DNA of 64,000 bases from contig CM037586.1 of the NCBI GenBank assembly GCA_021018995.1, forward strand, positions 151,942,060-152,006,059. The letters run 5' to 3'. Every line of letters starts with the position of its first letter. The stretch's first letter is position 1. The notes beneath the pieces were generated by a model that was not told where the DNA came from, ran no database searches, and saw only the letters and a list, made by a program, of their open reading frames with translations. The stretch comes from Chloranthus sessilifolius (Eukaryota > Streptophyta > Magnoliopsida > Chloranthales > Chloranthaceae). Both the position numbers and the translations under genes were made by a program. Below are positions 28,209 through 58,428 of this stretch, in pieces.

Positions 28209-29138
28209 TGACGCAGGACGGTACCCTAAACTACGTGAATGCAATGATTAATTTTGCCGAAATTAAATTAAACAATAGAACTTGCAAAATATAACGAATA
28301 CCTCAGGTTTTCGTAGTATTCTATGGGAGAATCACGCATAATTCAGGCAGGGTTCAGTCCGGACGCTAGATCCGTTAGATTGCAGCGCAGATCGATCCTA
28401 GAGCTAGAACTCTAGGATTTTCCAGATTAGGGCGCTCACAATTCAAGATGGGATCACTGGTTTTCTTTGATTATTTGGTGCAGAAGGTTTAATAACTCAA
28501 TTGGAATTTACAGTTGTTGAATCAGATCGACTCAAGGCTTAGGGGAAAACTAGGTTTTAGAATGTTAAAAGGAATGATGGCTGATTTAGGATTGTAAGGA
28601 TCAACACACAAGCAGAGAAAATGAAAATAAATAGATGGATAAAAGATAGATTTGCAGGCTTCACACCCTTGGCTTCGCACCAAACCCTTCTCGGGAAGAA
28701 GATTCACTCTTCGTAGAGGCTCATCTCAAGCACACACAAGCAAAAGCTCTTTTCATTTAATAATCAATAATCAATCCTCAATAGAGTGTTTACAATGCCT
28801 TTATATAGGCTAAGAAAACCCTAAACGATATAAAACTCGCAATTAAAAGAGTCCTAAAATAATAAAAGACTAAAAAGGTAAAAAAACGAAAAAATAAAAA
28901 TTTTCACATCCTTGTAGCTCGAGCGAGAGGATTTTAACTGCTTCGGCGAGGGCTCGCCGAAACCTTTATTCTCCTTACGGTTTGTATCTGTTTCTCCGCT
29001 GAGGCTATGGTACTCGGACCTCCTCTACATTTCCAGAATTTCCCCTTTCGCCTAGTTTTGATTTCCATTCCGCTTCTTCCGACGTCGATACACGCGAAAG
29101 GTCCATATTTGATGTCTACGATGTCAGCGTCCCCGTCA
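28209..29138 (-). repeat. 3' LTR of the gypsy element
   Basis: 930 bp. Aligns with 33689-34631 over its first ~555 bp and last ~175 bp (plus coordinates) but not in the middle (about 28767-28963), where the two LTRs carry different sequence. The C-terminal part of the integrase/chromodomain reading lies inside this LTR. Confidence 0.9.
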
Positions 29139-32100
29139 ATTCTCCCGGGCCGAAAAGGCTTCATCACCGATGAAGCGGCGTCGTGATAGTGCTCGAGCAT
29201 GTCGGGGTCCAAACGTCGCACTTCGTCTTCAGCTAACCATGAGTTTTCGAAGTTCAGCTTTCCCAACCACTTGACCAAGTACTTTTGAATTCCGCTCCCA
29301 TGGGTGGAGATTGCCAAATCATCTAATATCCCTTCGATCTCATCTCTTCGCTGCTTGCGTGGGGAAGGGAAAGGTAGGGGTTGTAGGGTGGGGCTGGTAT
29401 TCGGGCTCGGGACTGCTTGGAAGGGGTTGTGAGGGGGTGGGGCTTGGGCTAAAGAAGGAACCAGGTCCTCCACATTGAATGTAGAGCTGACCCCTATATC
29501 TAGTGGAAGCTCGAGAACATATGCATTAGGGCCGCTCCTTGCCACAATTCTAAAAGGCCCAGCGCCACAGGCTTGAAGTTTCTTTGCAGCTCCCAATGGG
29601 AATCGCTCAGGCCTAACCCAAACCATGACGTAATCTCCAACCTAGAATTCCTTGAAGCGCCTGTGCGCATCCGCAGAGATTTTGTATTGTTCATTGCTAG
29701 CATTAATTCTTTTTCTAATTTCGGCATGCAATTCATGTATATGCTGTGCAAATGAATCGGCTGACTCGGAAACTCGATGAGATACAGACATAGGAATTAA
29801 ATCAATGGGTGTTTTAGGCCTATGACCAAGGACGACCTCAAAAGGACTCATACCTAGGGATCTATTGACTGCATTGTTATATGCAAACTCGGCTAAAGGC
29901 AAAATAGAATCCCAAGTCCTAGGGTGATCACCAACAAGACAACAGAGAAGATCACCTAAGCTCCTATTGGTGGACTCCGTTTGGCCATCCGTTTGAGGAT
30001 GATAGGCCGACGAAAATTGGAGCATGGTACCCATCATGTGCCATAAAGTTTTCCAGAAGTAACTGGTAAATCTCACATCTTGATCTGACACAATCGTCTG
30101 GGGTAAACCATGTAGACGCACAACCTCCCCGAAAAATAATTTGGCTATGTGAGCCGCATCGGAGGTTTTAAAACAGAGTATGAAGTGTGCCATCTTGGAA
30201 AAACGGTCTACTACCACAAAAATGGAATCGTGCTTTCGTTGAGTCTTTGGAAGCCCAAGCACGAAATCCATAGAGACGTCTTGCCACAGGGTGTGCGGCA
30301 CGGGTAAAGGGGTGTATAAGCCGATATTTTGTTTGATATGCTTCGCAACTTGGCATGTACGACACTGTTTCACGACCCTAGAGACATCCCTCATAAGGCT
30401 AGGCCAATAGAACATATTCTCAACAAGCGCACAGGTTTTATCGTGCCCAAAATGTTTGGCAATCCCTCCGACATGTAACTCCTAGATGAGGAAATCATGC
30501 AATGAAGTACGAGGGATGCACAAACGATTGTCTTTAAACAAATACCTATCCATTAGGGTATACACGGAGTTAATGTTGTTCGAATTTTCAAGGAAAGCAG
30601 TGTATTTTGCCCTGAAATTTGGGCAATCAGGATAATCTTGCCTCAACTGCTCAAATCCGACGACCTCGGTGCTCATAGATTGCAAAGTCGCCACTCGACG
30701 ACTAAGCGTATCAGCAGCCTTGTTCTCTGCACCAGCCTTATGCTTTAAGACAAATGTGAACCCTTGAAGGTACTCGACCCACTTCGCGTGCCTCGGGTTC
30801 AACTTTTTTTGCGAAGCAAAGAAATGTAAGGCTTCGTGGTCAGAAAACAACACAAATTCCTGCAGTCTCAGGTAATGTTTCCAATACCACAGAGATCGGA
30901 CGACTGTATAAAACTCCTTGTCATAGGTGGAATATTTCTGCTTTGCCTCATTGAGCTTCTCACTAAGATCGATCTCTGTGGAAGCTACGGACTTCATGAA
31001 TATTCCGAGGTTCGGGCCACTCTACAATGGCCTTAACCTTCGTCGGGTCTGCAACCATCCCGTCTATCGAGACAATGAATCCCAAGAATGTAACAGAGTG
31101 TTACATGAAGGTGCACTTCTTGAGATTCGCGTATAACCTTTCTCCCCTCAAGGTTTCGCAAACCAACCTTAGGTGGATGATGTGTTGTTCCTTGTCTGGG
31201 CTGTAAATTAGGATATCATCAAAGTATACGACAAGGAACTTGCCAAGGAATGGCCTCAACACTTGGGTCATGAGCTTCATAAATGTGCTCGGGGAATTGC
31301 AAAGTCCAAAAGGCATGACCATCCACTCATAAAGACCGTCTTTGGTCTTGAAGGTGGTTTTCCATTCATCGCCAGGGCGAATACGAACCTGATGGTAGCC
31401 ACTTTTAAGGTCTATCTTTGAAAAGATAGTGGCTCCAACCATCATGTCAAACATGTTATCAAGCCGCGGTATGGGAAACCGACACTTAACAGTGATCTTA
31501 TTGTTTGCTCGGCTATCCACACATGCGCCATGTACCATCTTTCTTAGGCATGAGTAATGTTGGTACAACACACTGGCTCAGACTCTCTTGTATGAACCCC
31601 TTTTGTAGGAGCTCACTGACTTGTCGAGTCAACTCGGTGTGCTCAATCGGATTCAACCTGTAGTGGGGAAGGTTCGGTAATGTCGATTCGGGAACTAAGT
31701 CAATTGCATGCTGAATGTCACGCATGGGAGGGAGCTCGTTAGGTAAGTCTTAGGGGAAGACATCCGCAAATTCACTCAGGATGGGCTCTACCTCCTTGGG
31801 GTACTCACAGACTGACTCAGAAGTACTCTCAACAGTAACAATGACATACACAACACTCTCATCTTTCGATGCTCTCTCAAAATCTGAAGGGTCCACAATA
31901 TTGATGGCTTTGGATTGACCTCCCTTTTTCTCAACTCTGTTGACTGATGGTGCTTTGGGAGCCAATGGGTTAAGAGTGATTTTCTTGCCCTTGTAATTGA
32001 ATGTACAAACGTTAGATCGCCAAAAAATGGTCACGTTCAAATCATAGAGCTATGGCCTCCCTAATATAATGTGACCCACATCCATCGGCACCACATCGCA

Positions 32101-33688
32101 CCATAAAGTGTCAGAGTATGAACCCAACTGTATGGGTACACAACACTTCTGAGATACGGGAATGGATGAGGAGTCAACCCATGCGACTTTGTAAGGTCTC
32201 GAGTGGGCTTCAGGTGTAAGCCCTAAGCGGGTGATGGTATGTTCTGACACCACATTGGTGCAACTTTCGCTATCCACGATAACCCTACAACTCTTTGTCC
32301 CATACGTGGCAAAGGTGTGAAAAATATTCTCCCTTCGCCAATCCTCCTTTTCATCCCGTTGGGGCTGTGCAAAGGCACACCTCACAACTAGAGCACGACC
32401 CATGTCATCAGCTTCCTCGTCACTGGGTGTGGCATTCGGCTCAAAGACCTCTTCCTCATAAACTCCTTCACTTTCTTCTCCTTCTCCATCGATGAAGAGA
32501 TTCCTTTGTGGGTCCCTTGTGGGGCATTGGGCAGTAAAGTGACCAAATCCTTGACATTTATAGCATTTGACATGAGATCCACTCTTCGAGGATTCTCTGG
32601 ATACACCCTTACCTTTGTCAAACCTCACATTGGTAGACGTGGGTTGCGTGGGTTTGGTAGGCAGGTTTTCAGCACTAGATTTCACTTCGCCGGTACGGAA
32701 ATGACCGGGGTGAAAATTAGATCGCCTAGTCACCGTCATCTTCAAATATCGTTTAGGGTCTTGAACGACGGTGTAACATTCGGCGAGAGTCTCAATAAGG
32801 TGGGAGACTAACTCTTTTTGCAAGTCAAGTCTCAATCCGGTACGAAATTTGGATAGAGTGACTTGAGGGTCTTCGGATACCTTGGCTCTCATCATGTACT
32901 CTTCAAATTTGCCAATGTAATCCGATACGGGCATACTACCTTGGCGCAGATTTTGCCATTGGTCAAGGAGACGATGGTAGTATGAAGAAGGAACGTACTT
33001 CTCTGTAAGTCGTTCTTTTATGTCCTCCCAACGGGTAATGAGAGTACAACCCGCATTCGTTTTGATGCGTTCAACGTTGACCCAAAAGAGTGGGGCTTGG
33101 CCTATGAGCTTCATTTTAGCAAGTCTAACACATCTTTCATTGCTCATGCCAAACCACTCGAAGTGCTGGTCCATATCGGATAACAAATCGAGGAAGACCT
33201 GAGGGTCTAGTCTTCAATCGAAAGTCGGGAACTCAACTCGGACATTTTTGAGGAGTCTCCCTTTCGGGTCGTAGTCATCTCCATGATGATCAAACCTATG
33301 GTTCCGGTTCCGATTATATTGGTAGCCATTTCGTTCAAAACGTGGACCATTACGCTCACGGGGTGGCTCAAAATATTCATCACCCTCGTCTAACCGATTA
33401 ACTTGGTCTATCAACCTCTTATTGGATGTTTCGAGAGTCCTTTGGACTGTCTCTAAGGCAGTCATTCGATCATTGATCGATTTTAGATCAGCCCTCATGC
33501 CGTTAAGAGCTTCGGCAATCCCACTCATGTCCATGGTGATACAGTTTTCTAATTGACGGGCTCTAGAATGGAATGCAAGATGAACACTTTGGCCAAAACT
33601 GAAATAATTTGTGATGAAAATAAAGTGCAATGAATGCAATGTCACACAATATGCTCTATCCTAGAACCTAGGGCTCTGATATCAAAAC

Positions 33689-34657: not shown

Positions 34658-35705
34658 TGATGGGAACATCAAAATCAAGAGCGTCGAATTTGGGCCACAA
34701 CAGATTCCCCAGCGTCGGAAGAAGCGGAAGGGGAGTTGGAATTACAGAACTGGAAGAAATTAGAGAATTTGGGCATATTGAGATCGATCGATCGATCCCA
34801 AAGAATCGATCGATTGATTGAGGCCTCAGGGCTTTTGGCGAAATTCTTTTCTCAGTCGATCGATTGAGTCTTAATTTTCAATCGATCGAAAGTGAATAGA
34901 GAGTTCACACGATTTATAACTTTATAAATCGATTGATCAATCCTAGAATTGATCGATCGATTTGTCACTGAGTTAGTTCTGCCAAAAGATGGAATTTAAT
35001 TTTTCGGGGCAAACTTATCTTTTTTGGTATTTATTTGTTTTAGGATTTTTTTTTTTTTTGTGGCCTACTATATAAGGTCTTTATAATTTTGTAATAGAGA
35101 TTGATTATTGAATGAAAATTTGAGAGCTTGCTTTGTGCTAACCCTAGAAGACTAGTGAAGAGTTTTCAACCGAAAGAACGAATCTTTCAAACCTTAAGGA
35201 GTGAATCTTCATTTCTCGTGCGACTTGGTGCGAAGCCAACGTACAACCTTGGTGTGAAGCCTCGGAACCCTTGGTGTGAAGCCTTGGATCGTATCGTTCT
35301 ATTCTATCTTTTCTCTCATTATTGTTTGGTAATATCTCCCCTATTTGCTTTGATAAAATCCAAAACCCCAAATCTTTATTAATATATATCTTTGATCCTA
35401 CCCTTTTATTGCCTTAATCCATCGAGCCCCATTTATTCAACCCTAGAGGAGTTAAGAGATGATACCATAATTGTCGCTTGGTGCCTTAAACTAGATCGAA
35501 ACTCGAGTCCTTCATCGGATCTATTTTTCTAGATCGGGAAATTAAATGTATGCAAACACTAAAATGGAATTATTCTAATTGTTTTAATTGAATTCATTAA
35601 ATTGCTTTATGTGTTTAGGTGATTTTAAAGATTTCCATTATTCAATTTAATCTGTGGTTAGTCCCAAATTCGCATCATTTAAGGTTTAGCAGTTGTCCCG
35701 CATCA
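34658..35705 (+). repeat. solo LTR related to the gypsy element
   Basis: Starts TGATGGGAACATC and ends TTGTCCCGCATCA, paralleling TGACGGGGAC...CGTCA of the neighbouring element. An internal AGCGTCGGAAGAAGCGGAAG matches a conserved block of that element's LTR. The flanks GAAAA and GAATA differ at one base, compatible with an old 5-bp target duplication. Contains ATCGATCGAT clusters at 34780-34966. No internal region: a solo LTR. Confidence 0.75.
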
Positions 35706-35842
35706 GAATATCTTTGAGAGTCAATTGAGATATATAATGAAACGACATAGAATGTCATCAACGTAACTAAAAGTAAACTATATTTACAAATCGTTTTCAA
35801 GGACCCAAGCATTTTATTTTACAAGTTACTAAACTTTACACA

Positions 35843-35848
<6 letters not shown>

Positions 35849-35914
<66 letters not shown>
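35849..35914. repeat. (TA)n microsatellite
   Basis: About 66 bases of TA repeat between the two solo LTRs. Confidence 0.95.
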
Positions 35915-35915
<1 letters not shown>

Positions 35916-36069
35916 CGACGGTTCATTTTATCGTGTTCAAACGAGGAGCTTTTTGATAGTATTATGTGGTATATTCATACATGTCTAGATGTATCGTGTT
36001 GTGTTGAGGAGTGGCCAAGTGCCACCAAGTGTCGGCACGACAAAAGTCTCAAAAGTAGAAGTGCCTAGG

Positions 36070-36240
36070 TAACACTGCTTACTCGGCTGTTAGTTTGAGA
36101 TTAATATGAATGTTGCTGTTGGCACTCGGGTCAAGTGACCTTATGCTAAGTCTTATTTGGCTGTCGGTTTGAGACTAATCTAAATGTTGCTGTTGGCTGC
36201 TGGCACTTGGGCCGAGTACCTTATTGTAAGTCTTATTTGT
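36070..36240. repeat. two ~85-bp tandem units
   Basis: CGGCTGTTAGTTTGAGATTA...CTAAGTCTTATTTG is repeated as GGCTGTCGGTTTGAGACTAA...GTAAGTCTTATTTG. It shares GGCACTCG and CTAAGTCTTATTT words with 28060-28105 and 37950-37980. Confidence 0.65.
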
Positions 36241-36301
36241 TTATGAAGTCATGGCATTTTGGAGATATCCAAATGGGATATGTTCATGTTAGAAGGAGGT
36301 G

Positions 36302-37315
36302 TGACGGGGACACCACTTACATGGACATTGGATTCGGACCACATCGTTTCTACTGGCGTTGAAAGAAGAAGCAGAATGGAAGTCAGGGCTAGGGAAAGAT
36401 GAAGAACTGAACAAGAAAGATGAAAACTGAAGGAACTCTGAAATTTTGATCGATCGAATTGAAATATCGATCGATTGAAAATTTTGATCAATCGAATACT
36501 AATTTCGATCGATCGAATGCCGACGATGATATTTTACAATATATGAATTTCGATCAATCGATTTTCAATTTCGATCGATCGAAATCGTGCCAGGTTGTTT
36601 TAGAAGTTTAGTTTCAAACTTTTGTTTTAGGAGTTTATTTGTCTTTTATTTAATATTCGTTTTAGGGTTTTCTTTTATTGTAAGACCTCCTATGAAAGGT
36701 CCTTAAGCTAAACAATGTGATTAGTTGATTGATTATTGAATGAGAGCTTTTTGCTTTGTGAAGAGAGTCTTCTTCCCCATGATGGGTTTGGTGTGAGACC
36801 AAGGGAGTGATTCCCATATATGTTCGTTATGTTGTCATCGATTTGCATTGCTTGATTATATTTGTTATCTCGCGATCTGTGTTTGCTTCCCTAAACCTTA
36901 GCCTAATTGTTGCTTTTCAATCCTGAAACCTAAACCTTTTGAATCCATAAACTACACAAAGCCCACAACCCTTTCCAAAACTATAAACCGATCCGAAAAC
37001 CATAACCTTTTTACAAACCGTAAATCCCTTTCACAACCCAATTTGGAATCTGTGAATCTACATCGGACTGAAGACGAGCGCCTAAGCCTGGAAAAGTTAG
37101 AGTCCTATCTCTAGGCCGATTTCGCCTCAACTCTAAACGTCTTGCGCATCGGACTGGACCCTGTTTGGATCTCGTGTGATATACCCATCAAAATTCTGCA
37201 AACCCTAAAGGTATCAAAGATAATTTTGCGATTAAACTTGAGTTAATTTATTTAATTTCGGCAAAATCTGCATTAAAATCATATTCACGCATTCTAGGGT
37301 TGTTGTCCCGCGTCA
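36302..37315 (+). repeat. solo LTR of a related gypsy family with perfect target duplication
   Basis: Begins TGACGGGGACACC and ends TTGTCCCGCGTCA; 1,014 bp. The flanks are AGGTG at 36297-36301 and AGGTG at 37316-37320, a perfect 5-bp duplication. It shares the GTTGAAAGAAGAAGCAGAAT block with the neighbouring LTRs and has GATCGATCGA clusters at 36449-36586. It has no internal region, so it arose by LTR-LTR recombination. Confidence 0.88.
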
Positions 37316-37740
37316 AGGTGTATGCTGAAAACTCATACAGGGAAAAGATTAATCATTTCAATATTAGGTCGACATGACACTTCCTTAAAATTTTCAACAG
37401 TTTTTACGTAGGTTTCAATATGCGTGTTGAAAACTGATTGGTTGTGACTATGTTGATTAGGATTTGGATTATTGATCATAATTGGCAGATTTGTGGTCAG
37501 GTTGCTCTACATAGTTGACAGTTTTCTATGTTTTTACTGAAATTAGCATAGACCTAGCCGATGAGATTGCTAAATCAGTTGGTTGTTGGGGTGAGGTCTT
37601 GGAAATTACAATATTGATGGTATTCCAATTGCAGCAGCAATCCACAAATATGGTTTTGTCTTATCCATTTTGTATTATTACCAAAAATAATTGACCCATT
37701 TTGTAAAATTAAGACAGGAAATAGCAGAGAAAGAACCGGT

Positions 37741-37985
37741 ATGAGGTACCTGATCCGAATGCCAGCAGTGGCATTCCAGTCAATCTCCTTTTGTCCGAAT
37801 AGTCAAGCCTCAGGAGCTGCACTGCTATTTATGGGCACGTTAATCAGTGAGAGTTCACTTTTGAACTTACACTGATTTGACGCTCAAAATTATCAGCACA
37901 TTTACTAAGATTGTCAGTTTGCGATTGACCTGATTGCCGCCACTGGCACTCGTGTCAGGTACCTTGTACTAAGTCTAACAGATAA
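37741..37985. repeat. dispersed repeat, second copy
   Basis: Same family as 27001-27235: GCCAGCAGTGGCATTCCAGT, GTCAAGCCTCAGGAGCTGC, then TGCGATTGACCTGATTGCC and a CTAAGTC end. Unknown nature. Confidence 0.6.
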
Positions 37986-38034
37986 AAACTCAGGTTGGTG
38001 CTTTTGTGATGTCATAAGCAGGGGTGATCAGCGA

Positions 38035-38240
38035 TTTAAAGTCCGATATATATTGGCATATTGGTTGGGTCCCAGGCGGATATGTATCCAATATATCAGA
38101 TACGTATTGGCCAAACTGGCTGATATTTAAACACCATTTTTTTTGTTTCTAAAATAATAAAAATATAAAAAATTGCAAAAAGGGCACAGATGGACCGTAA
38201 CCGCCAACCGGATACATATCGGCCGATATTTAAAACCATG
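38035..38240. repeat. GATACGTATTGG dispersed repeat
   Basis: Words CAGATACGTATTGGCC, GGATACATATCGGCCGATAT and TTTAAAACCATGG, as in the copies at 11.2, 19.0 and 22.1 kb. It lies about 80 bp upstream of the COM1 start codon. Confidence 0.5.
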
Positions 38241-38319
38241 GTGCTGATAAGTAGATGTATCTCCCATGATAATTCTCTCCTTCATTCTGTTTCATTGACT
38301 ATCTCGTTGCTTCCAGAAA

Positions 38320-40669
38320 ATGGAAGGTGACTTACAGAGCTCTCCATTGTTAGAGTTCTCCATTGATGATGATGACACAAAGTACTTTTCTGGATTAAGC
38401 ACTATACTAGTGGCCACAATTCAGGAAGTAAAGGACAGGATTTCGCAGATAGAGTATCTTTTCTGTAGTCAGCTCTTCCCAAACTTTCATTCAAGGTCTA
38501 AAAGCTTACAGAAAAGGCTCACAGAAATCAGAAAGGCTGCAGAAGATGACTGGAAAAAGAAGGAAATATCTCTTTTACAGCAAATAGAAGAGCTTAATCT
38601 TGAAAAGCAACACGCCCAAGAGCATAACCAGTGCTTGACCGCTTCTCTAGAACAGGAACAGTCAAAGTTATCGACTTATGAACAATTGTTGTACACACAT
38701 GAAACTGAAGAGAAACGGCTACGGGCCAAACTAGAAAATTTGGAGAGTGGAGAGGTTGCTGTGCTCCAAGAAAACCTTTTACGGAAGATGGAAGAAGCGA
38801 CCAACGGAAAGGAATTACAAGAAAAGTTACTGCAACAACTCGCTTTGAAAAACTGCGAGCTGTTGGTAGCGGAGAATAAGAGAAGTGATGCAATTGCTAG
38901 GTGCACAGATGTAACGAATAGCCTGCAGAAAAGGGTTGCAGAAGCCAGAAAAGTTGCAGAAGATGAGTGGAAGAAGGAAATATCTCTTTTACGTCAAATA
39001 GAAGATCTTCGGCTTGAAAAGCAACATTTCGAAAAAGAAAACCAGCGTTTGATTGCTTCCCTAGAACTGGAGAAGTCAAAGTTATTGACAAACGAACAAT
39101 TGTTGAACACCCATGAAGCTGAAAAGAAACTGCTACTGGCTAAACTAGAAAGCCTAGAGAGAGAAGCGGCCAAGGGAAAGGAATTACAACAAAAGCAACA
39201 GCTGTTTCTTACAGAGAATAATAGGAGTGATGCAATTGTTAGTGACACAGATATAGAGAACAGAGTACAGGAAAGGCTTGCGGAAGCCAGAAAAGTTGCA
39301 GAAGATTACTTGAAAAAGGAGAGATCCCTTTTACAACAAATAGAAGAGCTTCGGCTTGAAAATCGACAAGTTCAAGAACAAATCCGGTGTTTGATTGCAT
39401 CTCTAGAGCGGGAGAAGGGAACGTTATTGACTAACAAACAGTTCATAAACACACATGAAACCGAAAAGAAACTGCTCTTGGCCAAATTTGAGAGTCTCGG
39501 AAATGTAGAGGCCGGTGTTCTTCAAAAACAGCTTATGCAGAAGATAGAAGACGTGGCCAAGGGCAAAGAACTACAAGAAAAGTTACTGAAACAGATTCAG
39601 TCGAAAAACCGTGAGGTGTTGCTTGTGGAGAATGATAAAACTGATATGATTGCTAAGTACTCTGATTTAAAGAAGTCCTACAAAAATTTGAAATCTCAAT
39701 ACAACTTTCTCCTCAGCAGGTCCGGTCTTGCATCAGATAATAAAATCTATACCAACAAGATGCTTGAGGAATGGGATTCATCAAGGATCCATCGGAATAT
39801 TGCACAAGGCAAGTTTTTTACTGCTCATAGCCTACAATTTTTTTTTGCTTAATTTGATTCAAAATGGTTAATTCGCCTATGCTTTTGAATTTTTTTGTCG
39901 TACTCATTAGTATGAGGTATGATTTGGCATTCATGTTTTGTATGGTACCATAGATTCTAAAATTGAGGATCCAAACTCCCCCCTGAACACTTCGAAACCA
40001 AGTGAACAGACAAATGAGATCAGCATTCAACCAAAACCAAAAGATGATGGAGGCAACAGATTAATTCAGAGTCCAATCTCCTATTCGAATATCAAGGTTC
40101 CTTCTAGTTCCACTCCCTTCCATGCAAAGAAACCCCCGATTAATGTGAAATCTGAGTCGTTGGTTGGACTAAAGCGATCAATCTCTAATTGGATTGATAC
40201 TCGATCACATCTAGAAGCTGGGGGTGCAGATCCGCACGATGATTTTCTTGATACGCCCATAGAGAATGCCAAGGAAAACTTGAAAAAATCTCCGAAGATA
40301 GCAGTCCAAGATTTTCCAGTTCTAGCTCCAGAAGACATGGAATTCGGCAATTCAGATAGTGAAACACAGGAGATAAATGCTGACCCTGCTGTACAGAAGC
40401 AGCACCTCTCAGTTTCAAGACAAGAGAATAAAGGTTTTAAGTACGTGGAACCAGTAAGGAAGAAGGCTGAGAGGGAGAATCTGAAAGGAGTTGAGTGCAA
40501 GCAGTGCAAAAAATTTTATGACGCCGTTATTCCTGATGGTGGAGACAATTCTAGCCACAATAATATTCGTTGTGAGCATCATGACGGGGTCTCGAGGCAT
40601 CGGTATAGGTATGTTCCTCCTATGACTCCTGAAGGATTTTGGAATATTGGATTTGATTCTGATATGTAA
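38320..40669 (+). CDS. COM1: COM1/GR1 DNA-end-resection protein (SAE2/CtIP homologue)
   Basis: Two coding exons (38320-39808 and 39954-40669) give 734 residues. The start MEGDLQSSPL leads into YFSGLSTILVATIQEVKDRI and EYLFCSQLFPNF, the conserved plant GR1/COM1 N-terminus. Residues 62 to about 450 are a long coiled coil made of three homologous units (62-200, 201-314, 315-450), which makes the protein longer than the roughly 590 residues I recall for Arabidopsis. The C-terminus has the SAE2/CtIP domain: CKQC (678-681), RCEHHDG (Cys703), SRHRYRY (711-713 RHR) and MTPEGFWNIGF. SDPHDDFLDTP-like DPHDDFLDTP and EDMEFGNSDSETQ are also typical. The family activates MRE11-RAD50-NBS1 nuclease, resects double-strand breaks and removes SPO11 in meiosis; GR1 was named for induction by gamma rays. 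The ATG is chosen because it follows a splice-acceptor-like TTCCAG by 3 bases. It looks intact. Confidence 0.92.
39809..39953 (+). other. GC-AG intron of COM1
   Basis: Exon 1 ends ACAAG and the intron begins GCAAGT, the classic strong GC-donor context; it ends ACCATAG. With this donor the intron is phase 1 and Q496 joins to D497 (AQ-DSKIEDPN) without a stop. The nearby GT at 39813 would give the wrong phase and meet TAA at once, so the GC donor is the one that keeps the gene open. Confidence 0.85.
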
Positions 40670-40698
40670 TTCACTTTTTCTTAAAGGATTGGACCTTC

Positions 40699-40704
40699 AA
40701 TAAA
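40699..40704 (+). promoter_or_regulatory. polyadenylation signal-like AATAAA for COM1
   Basis: AATAAA 30 bases after the COM1 stop codon. Position fits a near-upstream element. Confidence 0.5.
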
Positions 40705-41147
40705 TTTAAGTTGTATGCCTGTATTTGTTATTGAGTTGGTGTAGGGTAACCGATCCGTTATTATATATTTTAAATATTATAAACCTAGAATATATTATAA
40801 ATTATAATAGAATGTAATATATTAATATAGAATATTGTTCCCTAATTATATTGACAATATATATAAAAAATTTCCTTCTTTTTCCATTTAATTCTGTCTA
40901 AAATCTAAATATAGGAGCGGGAAATTCAATCAATCGAAGCGGAACGAGCTAGTGCATGCATGCATTACAAAGAGGCCCAAATAAGCATCACAGATCTTAG
41001 GCTTTCCAAAATTGACCGATTCTTTCTTTCTTCTTGCTTCGAAAGAGTACTCTTGAGAGTGAATGGGTCATTGGATCTGTACATGTGGGACTATTTTGGC
41101 GCAACATTGGCTCAAGGACATAGTCAATGACCCGTTCACTCTCAAGA
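40705..41147. other. intergenic, with a 22-bp inverted repeat
   Basis: No gene. CTTGAGAGTGAATGGGTCAT at 41052 onwards (22 bp) recurs inverted at 41125-41146 with one mismatch, flanking about 50 bp, directly beside the left end of the TRIM-like element. Confidence 0.5.
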
Positions 41148-42092
41148 TTAAAAAGTTATAAAATATAGAAGAAAATAAGAAGAAGATGATTGAGAGGAGA
41201 AGAAGATAGAAAGATAGAATAGACAAATTTTCACAATCGATTACATTGTTTACCGTACATTTGGTTGAGATAACTGTGTGGTAGTTATCAAATAAGGCAC
41301 ACTCTAATACTCCCCCTCAAGTTGGAATGTGAACGTTTGAGAACATCCAACTTCGAAGATAAACAGTTACGCATATGTGTAACAACCATAAAGATTCGCA
41401 ATGATATTGCCGAAACTCGATCTTGCTTGTTGGTGGTCACCCCTGTTTATGAAGTCCATCACTGTCTCATCCCGCTCATCTTGGAGTCTATCGGAGCCGG
41501 TGGCCCACTAGATCAGGTCTGTCATGATCTCTCCCAACAACAATTGAAGATGAATCATGTGACAAATCTTTTTAAAGAGCTTTTGAAAATATAAAAAGCC
41601 AAAGAATATGGGAAAAGACATCCACATAGAGTATAGAAGATAAAAAAAAATATGGGAAAAAACATCCACATGGAATACAAAAGGTCATTGAAAACCAAAG
41701 TGGAAAATACTCATCCACTAAGTAAATCAATGTGGAAAATACATCCACGTGAATAAGAAGACATCTCTTATTAAATGTAAAAGAGAATAAGAGAAAAAAA
41801 TGAAAATTACATAAATCAATTTAATGTAGAAGAGATACAAGAAAAATGAAATGTTTATGAATCAGGAAACTTCAAAAAAATATGATAGCGAAAACAATGT
41901 TAGGACCATGACTGGCTTGAACGCTCTGATACCACGTTAAAATTATAAAATATAGAAGAAAATAAGAAGATGAACGAGAGAAGAAGATAGAAAGATAGAA
42001 TAGACAAATTTCCATGATCGATTACATTGTTTTCCGTACATTTGGTTGAGATAACTGATGTGTGATAGTTATCAAATAAGGTATGCTCTAAT
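41148..42092 (-). mobile_element. TRIM-like LTR retroelement, about 945 bp
   Basis: Read on the minus strand: 5' LTR about 42092-41935 starting TATTAGAG, primer-binding site TGGTATCAGAGC at 41934-41923, ~600 bp internal sequence, polypurine tract TTGAGGGGGAG near 41310-41320, then 3' LTR 41309 to about 41148 starting TATTAGAGTGTGCC. LTRs of about 160 bp are alike by eye. No retroviral protein domain was recognised inside, so it would depend on another element. A further LTR fragment of the family lies at 42283-42345 and a partial copy at 6748-7370. Confidence 0.78.
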
Positions 42093-42282
42093 AAAAACAA
42101 CCTTGCCCTCAAGGTTGATCATTGAAGCAATGGAAGATGTCTTGTTGCAATTGATCAAATTGTTGGCATTTGATTCCTTTCTTGAGCAAGTTCGACATTT
42201 TTCGGCATGAGCGTCATTTAGCTTTGGGGTAGTCTCTTCAAACGATCATATCTTGATGGCATCTTGCAAAAATATCGAAATT

Positions 42283-42345
42283 TCTCTGATCGATTGGTTG
42301 AGATAACTGATGTGGTAGTTATCAAATAAGGTACACTCTAATAGA
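42283..42345 (-). repeat. LTR fragment of the TRIM-like family
   Basis: GGTTGAGATAACTGATGTGG through CACTCTAATA matches the start of the LTRs at 41148-42092. Confidence 0.65.
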
Positions 42346-43025
42346 AAGGGTCTTTGACTCTACTTCTTTTGAATGGGTCATTGATTATCGTGGTCCTTTG
42401 GCTCTCTGGGTGTACCAAAAAATTGGATATTTCTGTGCTACATAAATTCTGTTTTATTGAATTATGGAGACTATAATCAACATTTCCTTTACTGCCCAAA
42501 ATTTACTTAGCTATGGCATTTATATCTTTCGTAAGTTTCCCATCTCCCTTTGGCTTTATTCTGGTATCAAGATACAAAATTGTCTTTGATAGAAAGCAAT
42601 TTCTTCGAAGGTTGATAGAAATAATTTCATTCAAAACTGAATCTGACCAGGATATCAGATATCCTGTATCCTGTCGTTGCATAATTTTTTCTAAACTCCA
42701 GCAATTTTCTAGTCTTACAAGAACATGAGATTCATTTCGGTCTTCAATTTGACTAGCCCCTCATTTGAAGACATTTGAAAAATACTTTCCAGTATTAGTA
42801 TTTTAACATAGCATTTAATTATTCTGCATGCCATGATAAGGGGATTCTGGATCTTATCATAGGGTAAGCAGGGGCAGCTAGTGCTGTCAATGGCAATGAT
42901 CCTTTTATCCAGTTCTGAGTTAAACAAGTACTTATATATGTTGAAAAACAAATATGGCCCTCTTATCAAATTATTTTCATTTATAATTGAACAGCCGTCA
43001 GAACTCTTTTTGAATTGAATTCTTT
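42346..43025. other. gene-free stretch between element remnants and the polygalacturonase 3' end
   Basis: No recognised coding sequence; probably 3' flank of the polygalacturonase pseudogene. Confidence 0.4.
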
Positions 43026-43507
43026 CTATTCTAGGTACATGTATGAATGGAAGTCAAGAAAAGATATGTTATTTACAGTGTTGGGCCTGAATGCCAAAGG
43101 GTTGTTCCATTCTTCTAACTTGTTGCCAGCCCATCTCATTTTCACATTAATCATTTCTACTCTTATGTGCTCCATAATGATCCCAGCTGTACTGTGTTTA
43201 ATAAGTCCTTGGCATCCTGGCCTGTAGTTGTCTAAACCGCCTGCAAAATCTGTCCATCTTCTGTAGGTTAAGTCCACATTGATGAATCTCACGTCACTGA
43301 GCATCCCACCTTTTGAACCTGATAGGAAAACACCATTTTCGGAGATTGCTGTTATGTTAACAAAGAGCATATTGGATATGGAGCCTGTTTTCGAATTCCA
43401 ATTCGGTGGGCAGGTGGTCAAGTAAATTGGCTCTGCCCTCCCCCACCAGGGGCCATAGTACTTCATCCTCATATTAATATTCGAGAAGGTGATGCCGTTC
43501 ACGTTTC
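43026..43507 (-). pseudogene. polygalacturonase exon 3 (last)
   Basis: Acceptor CATCCAG before GAAACGTG; joins exon 2 as RDG-GNVNG in phase 1. Open to the stop at 43026-43028 with no internal defect, ending at about the normal family C-terminus. Confidence 0.88.
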
Positions 43508-43702
43508 CTGGATGGATGAACACTAATTAGCACTAGGGAGAATAAAAAAAAAATTCCTAACTGAAAAATAAAGAAAAATGCTGCTAAGCATCGATAAATG
43601 AAAATTCTAAATCCTCGTACCAGTAACTGTTAAGAAAATCAAAATTTGACAACTGCTAATAGGAGTTTACGCTATAGCAACATTTTAGAATGAAAGTTTT
43701 AA

Positions 43703-44022
43703 GGCCGCGTATGGCATAGCTCTCTGCTAGCCCCTGCCATGGAAGAGTTCACCTGCTTTAGCAGGTTCCCATCCTGTTTGCTAACATCCTGCTACCTGCT
43801 TTGGTAGGTACCCCTGTTCAACAGTTCTACCCTCCTCTCTACTCACTCCTTGCAAGAGCAGATTTTATTTGCTCTCGTAGGGAGTTAGTAAAGAATAGGG
43901 CGGTTGTTGCTAGAGCTGGTAAATCCTCATTTGCAGGGAGTTAGAAAAGAGAATGGAAACCAACTAATGCAGGTGAACTCTACTGTGGCAGATGCTAGCA
44001 GAGGGCTATGCCATACGCAGCC
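43703..44022. mobile_element. Tourist-like MITE in polygalacturonase intron 2
   Basis: 320 bp with near-perfect inverted ends of about 28 bp: GGCCGCGTATGGCATAGCTC at the left, inverse of GGGCTATGCCATACGCAGCC at the right. The flanks are TAA at 43700-43702 and TAA at 44023-44025. A 3-bp TAA/TTA duplication fits PIF/Harbinger MITEs. It makes up almost half of the 698-bp intron. Confidence 0.85.
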
Positions 44023-44205
44023 TAAATCCCTAAGCAATAAAAGCACAGGAAAAAGTGTCCAAAACCCTTGAAAATAGAAAGGAGAAACCCATTGGGAATC
44101 CTTACTAATTGGGCTAGTCATCACCAAGAATATCTCTCAAAGGATAGGAAGTAAACATACTGATACAAACTATCTGTAACCAACAAAAGAATAGCAGTGT
44201 GGTAC

Positions 44206-44537
44206 CTCCATCGCGTATTTGCATTCCTAGCCCTCTGTGTGAATTGACAATCATAATGTTGTCGAAAATTAACCCCTTGAAATCGAATGAACTCGCACTT
44301 CCTAACTTGATTGCTGAAGATTTTGTCCGAATCCAACAATCTGCCACCGTTAAGTTTTATAATGGCCCTGTGTAAGTCTTCGGACAGATGGCATCATCTC
44401 CTGTGTCGATGTGGCATCTCATAATAATGGTATTATTTGAATCCTTGATATCAATTCCGTCATTGCTTGGGGTGTTGAAATTGCCATAAATGGAGATGTT
44501 GGGAATCAACGAGTTACTACACCTGACAAGATGCAAA
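44206..44537 (-). pseudogene. polygalacturonase exon 2
   Basis: Acceptor TTGCTGCAG before TTTGCATCTTG; donor GGAG before GTACCA. 332 nt. Carries the catalytic-type NDGID and TGDD motifs and one nonsense codon where relatives have Tyr in GPLYNLT. Confidence 0.88.
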
Positions 44538-44599
44538 CTGCAGCAACAAGATTGAAAGAGAAGCAGATACTGCTCAAATCCCCAAAGAAAGAAACTGCA

Positions 44600-45960
44600 G
44601 ATTGTTGTAAAAATGGAAGAAAATGGGGTGCACACTCTACATGCATTTACTGGTTTGTGAGCTCAATAATAAGCAAAACCACAATTGAAAGCACAATGGA
44701 ATCCAATCATGAAGCACAGATCATAATTCTTTTAAGGGAAGAAAAAACAGAGAACTATAGATTACCTGCATTAGTCTGTGTTAGGAGTCTGCATGATTTC
44801 ATTTACATATTGATGCATATATTTGTGTTTTGGTTTGGTTCTCTTTTCTGATCATAACTAATGTTTGAGTTCATATAAATTTACATAAAGACCTCAAGTT
44901 GAATTGTTACTCTGTCGAAGTTATTTAAAATAAATAAATTATTATTACTATTATTTATTTTTCAAGTTTACTTCATTGCATGGTGCTCTTTGCATCATCA
45001 AAGGTGAGGATTTTTTTACGGACAGGTGTTTATATAATGTTACTCATTGTTTATACTTCATAAACTTAGTGGAGAAATATGACAAGTAAAACCGACCCAA
45101 AATAGATGAAATAAGGCTGTGATGACTGATGATGATAATTGTCGGCTAAAAAGAATACGAGAGCGTCCTATAAAATAAGATTTGAGTCTCTGACTTGCAG
45201 GAGCCCAACTCTAAGAACTCCATTAAAAAGAAGGCTTTGAAAGGTTAAGTAACTGCAACTGTTAAGAATGTAGCCACGCAAGGCCTTGATGTTATTAGAC
45301 AGTCAAGAGAATTAGTATGAAATTGAGTTCCAAACTTCCGATAGAGCCATGAGAAATGTTTTTGTTTTTGTATATATAATGGAAAACTAATTCTTACTCC
45401 CACTATACTAAAAATATGATCAGTTATGTGCAAAATTTGGTTCGAATATACAATAATGAAACTTCTTTAGTTTCATTATATTTATGATCAAATAGTTGAT
45501 TTGAATAATGCCCCTATAGGTCACCACTGATAATGCAAGTTTACTTATAGTAATAAGATTGATTAATTATATATTAAGTTAAGGAATGGATAAGGAGATC
45601 TAAATGATTCTATTTCTTTTATTAACAATCAATCCTCATCATAAGTAAATAATTTAATTTTGACAGCAAAAGAATGCAAATTTTGTAAATGCTAAAATCA
45701 GTTAAAAAGAAGGAAAGAATGAACCTCTTTTTATATTTCACAAATATTTTACTTGTTATTTATTTATTGAAATCAAAACCATGGCGCCTTTAATTAGATT
45801 TTCAAAAGGTGTGGATAAATGGCCGCTGTGACTGTTTGAAGTACCCAAGTAACATTCTGAGCATAACCATTTGTTGGTCGTGGTAGGTTTTTGCATCTAA
45901 GTATATTACCATCTACAACCATTTAAGATAATGAGAGTTTTAGAGATTAAGATGTTGAAA
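44600..45960. other. intron 1 sequence of the polygalacturonase relic, no feature seen
   Basis: AT-rich with no coding domain or clear repeat; the ORF 44531-44851 on the plus strand is partly antisense to exon 2 and otherwise unsupported. Confidence 0.45.
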
Positions 45961-46063
45961 AAATTGTTAGATTAAGATGGAAAAAAATGTTGAAGGATAG
46001 AAGCAAAAATAAAGGAGATGAAAAAAAGGGTAGAACTTAGAGGCACGTTAAGATAAATACTTT

Positions 46064-46727
46064 CTCTAAACGTTATTTGTCTCCTTCCGATTAGAATCGT
46101 GATAGCAAAAGAGGAGAATAACAAACACATTCTCGAGATACAACCAAGTCCAACCCTCTGTAATTCTTTTTTGTGTTTGCACTCACAGAAAGGAATTTTG
46201 AACACTATGTAATATGCCTAAAAAGAAAGAAAGAAATTCTTATTTTCTTGTGTCTTTTTCTTGTATCTTTTTAACGGAGCCGGTTAGAACCATGGTAGCA
46301 AAAGAGGAGAATAGCAAATACATACCCGGGATACAATCAAACCCAACCCTCTGTAATTCTTTTTTGTGTTTGTACTCACAAAAAAGAATTCTGAATACTA
46401 CGTAATATGCCCAAAAAGAAAGAAATTCTTATTTTCTTGTGTCTTTTTCTTGTATGTTTTTAACGGAGATCTTATCTCTATTAAATAGAGAAAATCTCCA
46501 ACTATTGTGTCTTTTCAGATTATGGTGAAAATATTTCAGATTTTTGTCTTTTCACATAACGGCAAAAAAAATAAATCGATTCACTTGTGTCTTTTAAGAT
46601 TTATGGTGACAAGATAAATCCAAATATGAAAAAACATTTCTTTAAAAAATAATTTTTACAAGTTTGCCATCAACGTATAATAAATCAAGAAAGAAAGTTT
46701 TTTGATACTCTTTAAAATATAAAACAA
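46064..46727 (-). repeat. 3' LTR of the copia element with internal tandem duplication
   Basis: Pairs with 50143-50731. About 190 bp is present twice in tandem here (46085-46278 and 46279-46470, each with GCAAAAGAGGAGAATA and CCTCTGTAATTCTTTTTTGT) but once in the other LTR. Confidence 0.8.
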
Positions 46728-46942
46728 TCTCCCACTATTTTAAAAGTTTTAAAAATATACAACAATCTCCCACTATTTTTAAAAGTTTATTTTTTTTAAA
46801 TAATTTATTTGGGCATACGAAAATTTTTAATGTATAAATGAAAGTATTTAAAAGATTTGAACTTTCACTTAGTGTAAGTATATCAAAGTTGATCAAGCTG
46901 CTTAGTCTTGAACTAAAGACCTTATCTAACAAACCAGATATA

Positions 46943-47221
46943 TTACACATTATAATTTATAAAACTTAGTGCTCTTAAAAAGCCAGCACATTTATGGCCA
47001 TGTGCTTTACCCAAGTTTCTTGAGTGCTTTAGGAGAGTCAATTGCTCCATAGGAAGCGGATCGTCTTCCACACTCAAATAGGTGAATCCATCAAGAGTGG
47101 CTCCTGCATAAAACTCCAACTTAAATAAAGCTATAGATTCATTAAGAGAATCAATCTCATCCTCTCTCACAGGATTAACACTAGTTTGGTAGACATAAGG
47201 GAATGAATTATTTTTGAACAT
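46943..47221 (-). other. 92-codon ORF downstream of copia RNase H
   Basis: Open frame between the end of RNase H and the polypurine tract, within the element. I recognise no domain; it may be element 3' sequence or chance. Confidence 0.25.
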
Positions 47222-50142
47222 ATAGTTCGTTCTAGTGCCAACACAGTCACTTGTTCAATTTATTTTTCCCATTGAACCTAAGTGATGGTTCACAAAACTT
47301 AAGTTGGGTTCTTATTGAAGTTGACTTTTATTTTATAGACCTCAACCTCATTCTATTAGATGTCTTATGTAAGTATTCTCTTGCAAGACCCTTTGTAAGA
47401 TGATCGACTAAATTCTCTTTCGATCTTACAGAATCTAAAGTCACTACTGCACCCTTGAGTAGAGTTTTGACATAGTTACATCTCAAACTTATATGTTTAT
47501 TTTTACCATTATACGTCTTATGATTCGTTCGTTTAAGAGTCGCTTCATTATCACAGTATATGGTAATTGCAATGATATGTTTATCCCCTATAGGTACGCC
47601 TACTAATAGGTTTTTAAGTCCATCTGCTTCTTTACATGTTGCAGTAAGTGTAATAAACTCAGCTTTCATAGTGACATAAGTTATGGAAGTTTGCTTTTTA
47701 GATCCCCAAGAAATAACTCTACTTGCCATAGTGAAAATTCAATAAGTCGTAGACTTTGATTCTTCACTATTTGTGTTCCAATTGGCATCACTATATCCTT
47801 CTAGAACAACAGGATAGTTAAGATAATGCAAGACATAATTTATAGTCCCTCTAAGATATTTGAGTACTCGATGTATAACATCCCAATGTTCTTGACCAGA
47901 GTTATTAGTATATCTATTGAGTTTACCCACAACATAGGCAATATCTGGACGAGTACAATGCATTGCATACATTAGATTTTTAATAACTCTTGCATATTCT
48001 AGTTGAGAAACACACATTCCAGTATTCTTTTTCAATTTTAAATTAGGGTCATAAGTGGTAGAAACATGATTACAATCATAGTAATCAAAATTTCTAAGAA
48101 ACTTCTCAATATAATGAGATTGGGTTAAAGATATACCCTTATAATTTCTTATTAATTTGATTCCTAAAATTGTATCAGCTTCTCCCATATCTTTCATCTT
48201 AAAATTTGAAGACAAAAATAATTTGGTCTTAATGATACACTTTATGTCGGTATCAAATATGAGCATATCGTCAACATAAAGACAGATAATAATACCAGAG
48301 GTTTTATTAAATTTATTATATATACATTTATCTGCTTCATTGACCTTATAATCATTTGATAACACCACTTTATCAAATTTATCATGTCATAATTTGGGCG
48401 CTTGTTTCAAACCATAAAATGATCTGACCAACTTGCACACTTTATGCTCTTGACCTTTCATGACAAACCCTTCGGGTTGTTCCATATATATCTTTTCAGT
48501 GAGGTCACCATTCAAAAGTGTTGTTTTTACATCCATTTGATGAATGTTTAAATGATGAACTAAAGCTAATGCCAACAAGAGTCTAATAGTAGATATTCTA
48601 GCAACAGGTGCATAAGTATCAAAATAATCAATTCTTTCTTTTTGTCGAAAGCCTTGAGCCACTAATTTAGCTTTGAACTTATCTATGGATTCATCAACTT
48701 TCAATTTCTTTCTAAATATTCACTTACACCCTATTGGTTTTGAACTAGGGGGTAAGTCGACTAACACCCAAGTGTTATTAGATAAAATTGAGTTCATTTC
48801 ATTATCGATGGCTTCTTTCTCAAAAAATGAATCAAATGATGATAATGCGCTCTTAAGGAATGTAGGGTTGCCCTCAATATTAAAAATACAATATTCCCTC
48901 TTAATATTATTTCTATTTTTCTCTATGAGAAAAACATAAAAGTCAGGTTCAAAAGTGGTATGATGTCTCGCTCGTTTACTCCTTTTAGGTTCTATGAATT
49001 CAAAAGTAGGATTATTACTCACAACAATATTATTATTGGAAGCAATAACATCATTGCTAGAAGCAACAATATCATTGCTAGAAGAACTAGAGATACTCAA
49101 ATCTTGATTTGATTTGTGGCGATTGAGATAAAGTATATTCTCAAAAAATTCAGCATATCTAAATTCAATAATGACATTATTTTCTAAATCCCAAAATCTA
49201 TATGATTTGCTATGTTATGCATAACCAATAAATATGTATTTCACAGTTTTAGCCAATAACTTATGTCTCTTAATGTCGAAAATTCTCACATATGCAAGAC
49301 ACCCAAAAACTTTAAAGTATCCTAAGTGAGGTTTATAATTTAACCAAAGTTCATATGAGATTATATTCTGATTTTTAAAAGGTATTTTATTCAAATATAT
49401 AACAAGATGTAAGTAAAGCTTTACCCACATATTCTTCGGTAAACCAAAATTGAATAACATAACATTTATTATATCTAAAAGAGTACGATTCTTCCTTTCT
49501 GTAACTCCGTTTTGCTGAGGTGTATAAGGGGTGATAACTTGATGGATAGTATCATGAAATTTACAAAACTCATCAAAGTCGTGTGATAAATATTCTCCAC
49601 CCCTATTGCTTCGTAAGATCTTAATTGAAGTCTTCAATTGATTCTCAACCCCTGCTTTATAAATCTTAAATTTGTCAAGTGCTTCATCCTTTGATCTCAA
49701 TAAGTAGATATATGTAAACTTAGAAAAATCATCAATGAAGGTAATGAAATATTTCTTATCCTTACCAGTTTCAGTATTTTTCAAGTCACATATATCGGAA
49801 TGGATGAGGCCTAATATTTCAGAACTCCTTTCCACACTTAGAAAAAGTTTTTGAACAATCTTCACCTGTGTGCAAATTTCACATTTATCCAAGACAGAAG
49901 TATTACATTTAGGAATTAAATCTAAAATTATCATACTCTTTATAAAACTAGAATTTAGATGTCCTAATCTACCATGCCACAAACTAAAAGAATTAACGAT
50001 ATAAGCAGAACTAGAAATTTTATTCACAATGTTAAGAATTACAGAGGAGAAGAACGCATTTATCTTAACGTGCCTATAAGTTCTACAATTTATTTCACTC
50101 CTTTATTTTGCTTCTATCCTTCAATAATTTTTTTCAACAATT

Positions 50143-50731
50143 CTAAACGTCATTTGCCTCCTTTCGGTTAGAACCGCGATAGTAAAAGAGGAGAATAACA
50201 AACACGTTCGTGGGATACAACCAAACCCAGCCCTCTGTAATTCTTTTTTGTATTTGCATTCATAAAAAGGAATTCTGAATATTACGTAATATGCCTAAAA
50301 AGAAAAGAAATAAAATTTTATTTTCTTGTGTCTTTTTCTTATATTTTTTTAATAGAGATATTTTTTCTGTTTATAGAGAAAATCTCTAACTATTGTGTCT
50401 TTTCAGATTACGGTGAAAAGATTTCAGATTTATGTCTTTTCAGAGAGTTGTCTTTTCACACAACGGTAAAAAGATAAATCGATTCACTTGTGTCTTTTAA
50501 GAGAGTTGTGTCTTTTCACATAATCATAAAAATAATCGATTCACTTGTGTCCTTTCATATTTATGGTGAAGAGATGCTAGACTTGTGCCTCTTAAGATTT
50601 TAAGATTTACAGTGAAGAGATAAATCTAAACATGAAAAAATACTTCTTAGAAAATAATTTTTATAAATTTGTCATCAACATATAATAAATCAAGAAAGAA
50701 AGTTTTTTAAAACTCTTTAAAGTATATAACA
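50143..50731 (-). repeat. 5' LTR of the copia element
   Basis: Shares GAGGAGAATAACAAACACGT, CCTCTGTAATTC and the AATAAATCAAGAAAGAAAGT end with 46064-46727. Confidence 0.8.
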
Positions 50732-51519
50732 TAAGAACCCTAAGAGAGATTAAGACAATTCATGAAAATTATAAGAGATTAGGATCTTTTGGCTCTCCAA
50801 AACCCCTTTAACCCTATGAAAGGACAAGAATACCATTGACAATTGTTTCAGAATATGACCAGATTAGAACCCTTTTATCCTGATTGATCGGTCGTACAGA
50901 AAGACCGATCGGCCAGTGATATTAACCGTTCGGTTGACCAGAAAGTAATACATTGGTCGTCAGAAAGACGAGAAACTAAATAATCGATTAGCCAGTGATC
51001 TCGACCAATATTTATTTATTATTATTATTATTTTTTTGAGAAATTTGATATCGGCCAATTGGTTGAACCAAAAAGAAATAAACCTGTGGTTAGGAAGATG
51101 AGAAAAATAAATAATCAAACCGTCATGATTAACAACCGATCAGTCTGGATGAGGAGAATATCAATTGATGGTCTGTCATATTCCAAAACAGCTGTTAAAG
51201 AGTATTATCGTCATTTTATAGGTTTGAAGAAGTTTTGGAGAGAAGGAAGGTCCTAATCTCTTTTAAAATTTTGCTTTTGATTTAATTCCCGGATCCAAAG
51301 GTCTTAATCTCTAATTACTAAAATGATTAATTAATGATTTATAATTATACTCCATTAATCAATTATTTTACATAATTGCCAAGGGTGATAATCAGACAAT
51401 TGGGTAGTAGAACACTCCACTCAAAGAACTGGCAAAAGCATTTTACAATATAAAAAAAAGAGTACCTTTGAATCCACCCACCGAATCTTTGAATTCACCC
51501 ATGTTGAAATGCATTGACT
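50732..51519. other. polygalacturonase intron 1, gene-free
   Basis: AT-rich, with GACCGATCGGCC-type words at 50880-51010. No gene or defined element. Confidence 0.4.
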
Positions 51520-57500: not shown

Positions 57501-58360
57501 ATAGTGCATTAACACATCACTTGATTTTTTATTGAAGGACTCTAAAATCATTATTTTAATACAACATATTGGAGTCTCCCTTCTTCTTTTGTTATGTCTT
57601 TAAAGGTCATGATCAAAGCATTCTTGCAATATTTAGTGTTCAGATAGCATGAATGGATTCACCAAATCCTTCACAAGAATACACAGTCGGCTCGTTATAT
57701 CTTGGAACCAATATGTCGGTAACTTTTGGTGACCACTTTATCAAAGTGGTGGGGGCAAATATTGGTTTAAAGACATCGACATTTCTCGTGCATCGAACCA
57801 ATTCCCTGGATTATTTCATGTCACATTTCACAATTTTTCAAGCAAGTACCTCATACCAGCTGAAAAATATCACAAAATGCTGATTGATTCAAGTTGAGAA
57901 AACTCAAACTCCTATTCATGAACTAGATTACTCTATTCAAACCCAAGTTTCCTGATTGTGAAGTATATAAAATTATTAATCAATTTATTAATAAACAAAA
58001 CCCTAACCAAACTAGAAATCCATAAGAACACACATTAATCGTCGTCATAAAATTAGAATGATATACTTTAACTCTAAAATGCCAAAGCGAACTCTAGTCA
58101 AAGAATAGGAGCAACGATAAACAGTCGATCAATGTTCTTTGGAGGAATTAGATCACCTCAGAAGCCCTGATTTCCATTATAGTTACAGAGATATTAATTG
58201 TTTATATGCATTTGAGTGAGATTCTTCGTTTTCGATTAAAATCTATAGTATCTCTGTTCGAACTAAGTAAGATAGATAATAGTTGCAGAGACTTGAACAC
58301 TTTGAAAGAAGAAAATCACCTGGTAAACACTAGTTTTAGTGAATCGCCAATATCTACAAT
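57501..58360. other. gene-free stretch
   Basis: No gene or defined element recognised. Confidence 0.4.
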
Positions 58361-58364
58361 CCAG

Positions 58365-58368
<4 letters not shown>

Positions 58369-58426
<58 letters not shown>
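58369..58426. repeat. (GA)n microsatellite
   Basis: About 58 bases of GA repeat; the frame of repeated RE codons through it is an artefact. Confidence 0.95.

Positions 58427-58428
<2 letters not shown>

Follow-up and report, generated by a model that had tools for sequence, protein, structure and literature searches.

The window, that is, the whole 64-kb stretch of DNA that was analysed, contains a gene that is taken, from its sequence, to be plant COM1/GR1, which acts in DNA-break repair and is a member of the CtIP/Sae2/Ctp1 family. A second copy of the gene lies elsewhere in the assembly. The features of the window copy are as follows.

38320 to 40669, plus strand: COM1/GR1 gene, two exons, 734 aa once joined
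38320 to 39808, plus strand: exon 1, an open frame from the ATG at 38320, residues 1-496 and the first base of codon 497
38320 to 38502, plus strand: unrepeated N-terminal segment, residues 1-61
38503 to 38919, plus strand: rod unit 1, residues 62-200, 139 aa
38920 to 39261, plus strand: rod unit 2, residues 201-314, 114 aa, 10 aa fewer than in the second copy
39262 to 39657, plus strand: rod unit 3, residues 315-446, 132 aa
39809 to 39953, plus strand: predicted phase 1 GC-AG intron, read from the sequence, 132 of 145 aligned bases the same in the second copy
39954 to 40669, plus strand: exon 2, encoding the SAE2/CtIP C-terminal domain as well as RHR (residue 711) and TPEGFW (residue 721); the stop codon ends at 40669

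The predicted donor of the window copy is CAAG^GCAAGT at 39808, and ATAG precedes 39954. The GC donor (CAAG^GCAAG) is apparent in both COM1 copies, the acceptors being ATAG (window copy) and AAAG (second copy). The identification as COM1/GR1, first proposed from the letters alone, is borne out by exon 2, which matches the Pfam SAE2 model PF08573 with an E value of 7e-11 (43.6 bits, cut-off 19.8). The C-terminal RHR motif is found at residue 711 of the window copy and at residue 719 of the second. The TP inside TPEGFW at residue 721 of the window copy may be the counterpart of human T847. T847 is the CDK site of human CtIP (PMC8205527), and RHR is a DNA-binding motif of the same protein (PMC6344080). 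The sole CxxC is situated outside the rod, at residue 678 (686 in the second copy). A CxxC zinc hinge was sought in the rod of both copies and none was found, so that a human-type zinc hinge in the rod is rejected.

For exon 1, Pfam returned a single match, below its cut-off. PDB sequence searches gave five weak matches to exon 1 (best E 0.062, none from the CtIP/Sae2/COM1 family), two weak and unrelated matches to residues 13-78, with the CtIP and Ctp1 chains whose tetramer motifs are solved being absent, and no match to exon 2. A whole-genome scan with PF08573 was uninformative, since it gave 0 matches in the gene's own genome and in 0 of 14 controls. When relatives were searched for in a viral contig collection and a genome contig collection, 7 and 40 pattern matches were obtained, respectively, and none was confirmed, as expected for a plant gene.

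Three Homologous Units in the Rod

The sequence-only reading had divided the central coiled coil of exon 1 into three homologous units, and these units are real. In the DNA they appear as direct copies in register: a 300-nt repeat family starts at 38557, 38971, and 39313 (ungapped identity to the first copy of 61% and 73%), and a 63-nt family starts at 38500, 38917, and 39259 (78% each), the copies following one another at 414-417 and 342 bases. The three units are absent from the Tandem Repeats Finder output for the window, which is expected for copies so diverged. Alignment at both DNA and protein level, which the same reading had proposed as a check, reveals similarity at both. The two gene copies together yield 12 inter-unit pairs, with a DNA identity of 73-80% over gap-free codons and an amino-acid identity of 55-67%. 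For the six within-gene pairs, local DNA scores are 225-290 and protein scores 271-363, whereas 200 shuffles of every pair (codons for the DNA) reached at most 33 and 91, respectively. Because the shuffles never came near the observed scores, the likeness of the units goes beyond coiled-coil composition.

The unit boundaries had been placed correctly to within a few residues, unit 3 ending at residue 446 and not, as first proposed, at 450. Unit 2 lacks 15 residues that are found in units 1 and 3, and this is seen in both gene copies. The unit lengths are 139, 114, and 132 aa in the window copy and 139, 124, and 131 aa in the second; none is a multiple of 7.

A Second Copy of the Gene

The genome search covered a 2.17-Gb assembly of 32 contigs. 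Searches with the proteins of exon 1 and exon 2 and with the rod DNA all led to one pair of places (among the best 28, 14, and 2 candidates scored, respectively). One is the gene described above, and the other is a second COM1 copy on the same contig (180973172-180974686), 29 Mb away, with an exon 1 that is 93% identical and free of stops. Its product has 742 aa and the same three units, and the reading frames of both copies are intact. A single-unit copy elsewhere in the genome is rejected, both places found among the best-scored candidates being three-unit genes; a third copy, if very diverged, could escape such scoring. The two copies are 94% identical across 3.9 kb, with 91% in the intron, 94% in the 5' flank, and 96% in the 3' flank, and they belong to a longer shared segment.

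35705 to 45952, no strand assigned: gapped segment common to the second locus near 180.97 Mb, in collinear BLASTN pieces of 88-94% identity, holding COM1

Additional collinear BLASTN pieces reach 55948 at 74-86%. The surroundings of the two copies carry different insertions. Within the gene, the window copy lacks nine residues of the unit 2 tail and one lysine of the unit 2 head, both of which are kept by the second copy.

Surroundings in the Window

Pieces that we read as a Ty3/gypsy-type retroelement occupy 28934-33660 on the minus strand in several open frames, two of which were scanned: one contains gag (PF03732), and the other a Tf2-1-like SH3, with Chromo just below the cut-off. Ty1/copia-type pieces are situated at 47328-50102 on the minus strand, with RVT_2, rve, and gag_pre-integrs in two scanned frames. 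Since they fall within a gap between collinear pieces (45952 to 50732), they were probably inserted here after the copying, or else lost from the other locus. A frame at 3673-4128 on the plus strand matches DDE_Tnp_4 (PF13359, E 1.8e-11), a piece of a plant DNA transposase. Within the segment common to the second locus, a putative pectin-lyase-like or polygalacturonase-like minus-strand frame at 43026-43526 has no Pfam match at E 0.001. An inverted repeat at 37739-37969 precedes the COM1 ATG by about 350 bases; its 47-nt arms are 77% complementary and separated by 137 nt. It appears MITE-like by our own reading, and a similar sequence is readable in the second copy. A perfect tandem duplication of 133 bases is found at 944-1209 (100% match); because its copies are identical, it is either very recent or an assembly effect. 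At 57845-60226, pieces show an 85-88% match, in reverse, to the sequence that lies ahead of the second COM1 copy, and 14173-15632 matches the same stretch at 77-84%. As two regions of the window match one stretch, a dispersed repeat is likelier than an inversion for 57845-60226. Rfam and tRNA scans of the 64-kb window gave 0 hits each.

Relative Age and Constraint

Between units, Ks is 0.41-0.69 over the 12 pairs from both copies (bootstrap limits of single pairs, 0.23-1.09) and Ka/Ks is 0.34-0.48, which indicates that the units have been under constraint since they arose. Between the two gene copies, Ks is 0.063, Ka 0.029, and Ka/Ks 0.46 over the whole gene, and the inter-unit Ks is about 6.5-11 times the Ks between gene copies. 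The earlier suggestion that the duplications are not ancient does not hold against these values, and a recent unit duplication is rejected by the inter-unit Ks. In a tree of the six units, the corresponding units of the two gene copies pair with each other in every case, at an ultrafast-bootstrap support of 100%. Because the units group by position and not by gene copy, the triplication predates the gene duplication, and homogenisation of the units since that duplication is rejected. Silent sites in plants change at about 5-15 substitutions per site per billion years, and at these rates the triplication would date to the order of 15-70 million years ago.

Between the gene copies, Ka/Ks is 0.06 in the N-terminus (residues 1-61, where just 4 changes are silent and 1 is a replacement), 0.69 for residues 62-453, 0.99 in unit 1, and 0.35 in the C-terminal remainder. 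The values for residues 62-453 and for unit 1 suggest that recent constraint is loose or absent there. Relative to the rest of the gene, the rod shows a borderline surplus of amino-acid changes (Fisher p 0.054 with counts rounded to 34/12 and 16/15).

Predicted Shape of the Rod

Proline is absent from residue 55 to residue 502 of the window copy. From a two-sequence input, AlphaFold2 predicts helices at 17-52, 56-177, 188-297, 309-392, 398-468, and 474-495 in exon 1 of the window copy (mean pLDDT 66.9, pTM 0.24), and at 17-52, 56-158, 164-294, 298-301, 319-477, and 482-504 in the second copy (mean pLDDT 68.5, pTM 0.24), the N-terminal helix 17-52 being common to both. With a pTM of 0.24 and two sequences, only the local helix content is usable, and the overall arrangement is meaningless. 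Averaged over 10 residues, pLDDT mostly lies at 66-86 in the unit heads, and for most of the tails at 42-67. The drop in the tails is most consistent at the junction of units 2 and 3 in both models. The two models disagree on where the unit 1 tail is broken (178-187 in the window copy versus 159-163 in the second copy), and pLDDT stays at 74-78 over residues 171-200 of the second copy. Hydrophobic periodicity of 3.5 residues is matched by 65 of 1000 shuffles of the window rod, where it is weak, and by 5 of 1000 for the second copy, where it is clearer; the best local register shifts along the rod. Jointed coiled-coil segments would fit these predictions better than the single stiff, longer rod envisaged earlier, which is doubtful given the low-confidence helix breaks in the unit tails and the departure of every unit length from a multiple of 7. 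If residues 17-468 (452 residues) formed one straight helix, an arm would measure about 67 nm by calculation, which is an upper bound.

Rod Length among Plant Orthologs

Maize COM1, defined by RACE and encoded by two exons with one intron, is reported to have 555 aa (PMC6055016). The window protein, with 734 aa, exceeds it by 179 aa, in agreement with the expectation of a protein longer than its plant ortholog. On the assumption of equal ends (349 aa), the maize rod would comprise about 206 aa versus 385 aa here, a ratio of 1.9. With an excess of 179 aa, the threefold longer rod that had been proposed is therefore unsupported. In a provisional Arabidopsis COM1/GR1 sequence, which serves as a lead only, about 270 aa occupy the rod position (ratio 1.4). 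It is thus more likely that the rod is 1.4-1.9 times longer than that of its orthologs, a range that derives partly from this provisional sequence.

The provisional Arabidopsis protein aligns over its full length, and one head-like stretch in it has 18-21 of 49 residues in common with each of the six unit heads. The match being similar for all six, this stretch does not single out unit 1. Against whole units, the best local scores of the provisional sequence are 80-98, above the maximum of 200 shuffles for five of the six and below it for one, and these matches fall at different places in the rod. A BLASTP self-comparison of the provisional sequence gave no internal repeat; the same run missed both proteins known to bear repeats, so that this negative says little. 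The lengths would fit a segment that was tripled within the rod while other rod parts were lost or replaced. The comparison that bears on lineage specificity consists of one published length (maize) and one provisional sequence (Arabidopsis), and the triplication may be common in a plant group. In titles and abstract openings of the openly licensed literature, no report of repeats in the plant COM1 rod was found, and titles and abstract openings on coiled-coil duplication in general described none there. The CtIP/Sae2/COM1 family is well known, and an internal triplication of the rod is unusual within it.

Possible Origin and Role of the Triplicated Arm

The locus is probably best explained as a COM1/GR1 gene in which a segment of the helical rod was triplicated ancestrally and which was later copied as a whole, leaving a longer and jointed arm. 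In the ancestor, a rod segment of about 130 aa, situated between the N-terminal end and the proline-containing middle, would have been duplicated in tandem twice, in frame. The triplicated gene itself would later have been copied, giving the two copies now 29 Mb apart on one contig. We infer that the gene is expressed and, by analogy with CtIP, that its product most likely still forms a tetramer through its N-terminus and binds DNA through its C-terminus. By the same analogy, the extra units would lengthen the dumbbell's arms and give them joints, the helical unit heads being separated by weaker tails; bridging by such arms, and an effect of their length on function, would follow the same model.

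It is quite possible, if short of likely, that the extra units are a tolerated spacer, whose length drifts by slippage or unequal crossing-over and whose flexibility leaves bridging unchanged. The anatomy is then the same, and the two explanations are not mutually exclusive. The looser recent constraint on the units speaks for a spacer (Ka/Ks between copies of 0.69, compared with 0.06 for the N-terminus and 0.35 for the C-terminal part, with the borderline rod excess at p 0.054), as do the length steps that are not multiples of 7 (139; 114 and 124; 132 and 131) and the end-to-end distance of human CtIP, itself variable in imaging (PMC6344080). However, the inter-unit Ka/Ks of 0.34-0.48, together with three units that are all in frame and long constrained in both copies, speaks for some use of the units since the triplication.

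It is improbable that the working gene is the copy at 180.97 Mb, with the window copy decaying as a duplicate. The loss of 10 residues of unit 2 and the whole-gene Ka/Ks of 0.46 (0.029/0.063) would agree with decay, but the frame of 734 aa is intact, the SAE2 domain, RHR, and TPEGFW are retained, and the N-terminus shows few changes (Ka/Ks 0.06). It is more improbable still that a triplicated rod is the usual state in plants, with the shorter references derived or mis-annotated. The inter-unit Ks of 0.41-0.69 is old enough for wide sharing, but the RACE-defined maize protein has 555 aa (PMC6055016), and the provisional Arabidopsis sequence has no internal repeat by BLASTP, a weak point since that run missed known repeats. 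An assembly artefact or mis-joined repeat, the doubt attached to the sequence-only reading, has a negligible probability and is rejected, since no supporting point was found, the DNA of the units diverges by 20-27%, and a copy 29 Mb away, about 6% diverged and flanked by different insertions, repeats the order of the three units.

The N-terminal arms of CtIP-family proteins are seen as the means by which these proteins hold broken DNA ends, and arm length is not known to set the bridging distance. Returning to the longer, jointed arm, a bolder extension, which is unlikely, holds that a plant lineage rebuilt the end-bridging arm by triplication into a long jointed tether, the number of units being an evolved setting of the bridging distance. 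If this were true and all helices were straight, up to about 130 nm (2 x 67 nm) would separate the DNA-binding ends, over four times the human dumbbell, and the two gene copies would now be diverging in unit 2. A three-unit arm beside shorter-armed relatives would allow length to be varied with native sequence; if arm length proved neutral, the arm would be a tether and not a ruler.

Comparison with Known Systems

Maize ZmCom1 has the two-exon, one-intron layout and the SAE2 C-terminus seen here, whereas its 555 aa contrast with 734 and 742 aa and three homologous rod units, and the one candidate COM1 gene model reported for maize contrasts with two gene copies in this assembly (PMC6055016). 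Plant COM1 is described as associated with the MRN complex and needed for resection (PMC11511760). The likeness to Arabidopsis GR1, in the provisional sequence, is about 33% identity across the full length. Fission yeast Ctp1 and budding yeast Sae2 belong to the same family by the SAE2 domain model, and neither surfaced in PDB sequence searches with the N-terminal part or exon 2. Efficient bridging requires both tetramerisation and DNA binding (PMC11317151). Human CtIP (RBBP8) resembles the present protein in its SAE2-type C-terminus with RHR and in its long helical N-terminal part. Its C89xxC92 zinc hinge is without a CxxC counterpart in the rod here, and the hinge is treated as a feature of human CtIP and not as defining the whole family. 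The human protein assembles through its N-terminus as a dimer of dimers, and some 30 nm separate its globular ends (PMC6344080, PMC8205527), a distance that varies in imaging (PMC6344080). Its strongly predicted helix extends to residue 145 (PMC8205527), whereas the predicted helix reaches, with breaks, to about residues 468-477 in the two proteins described here.
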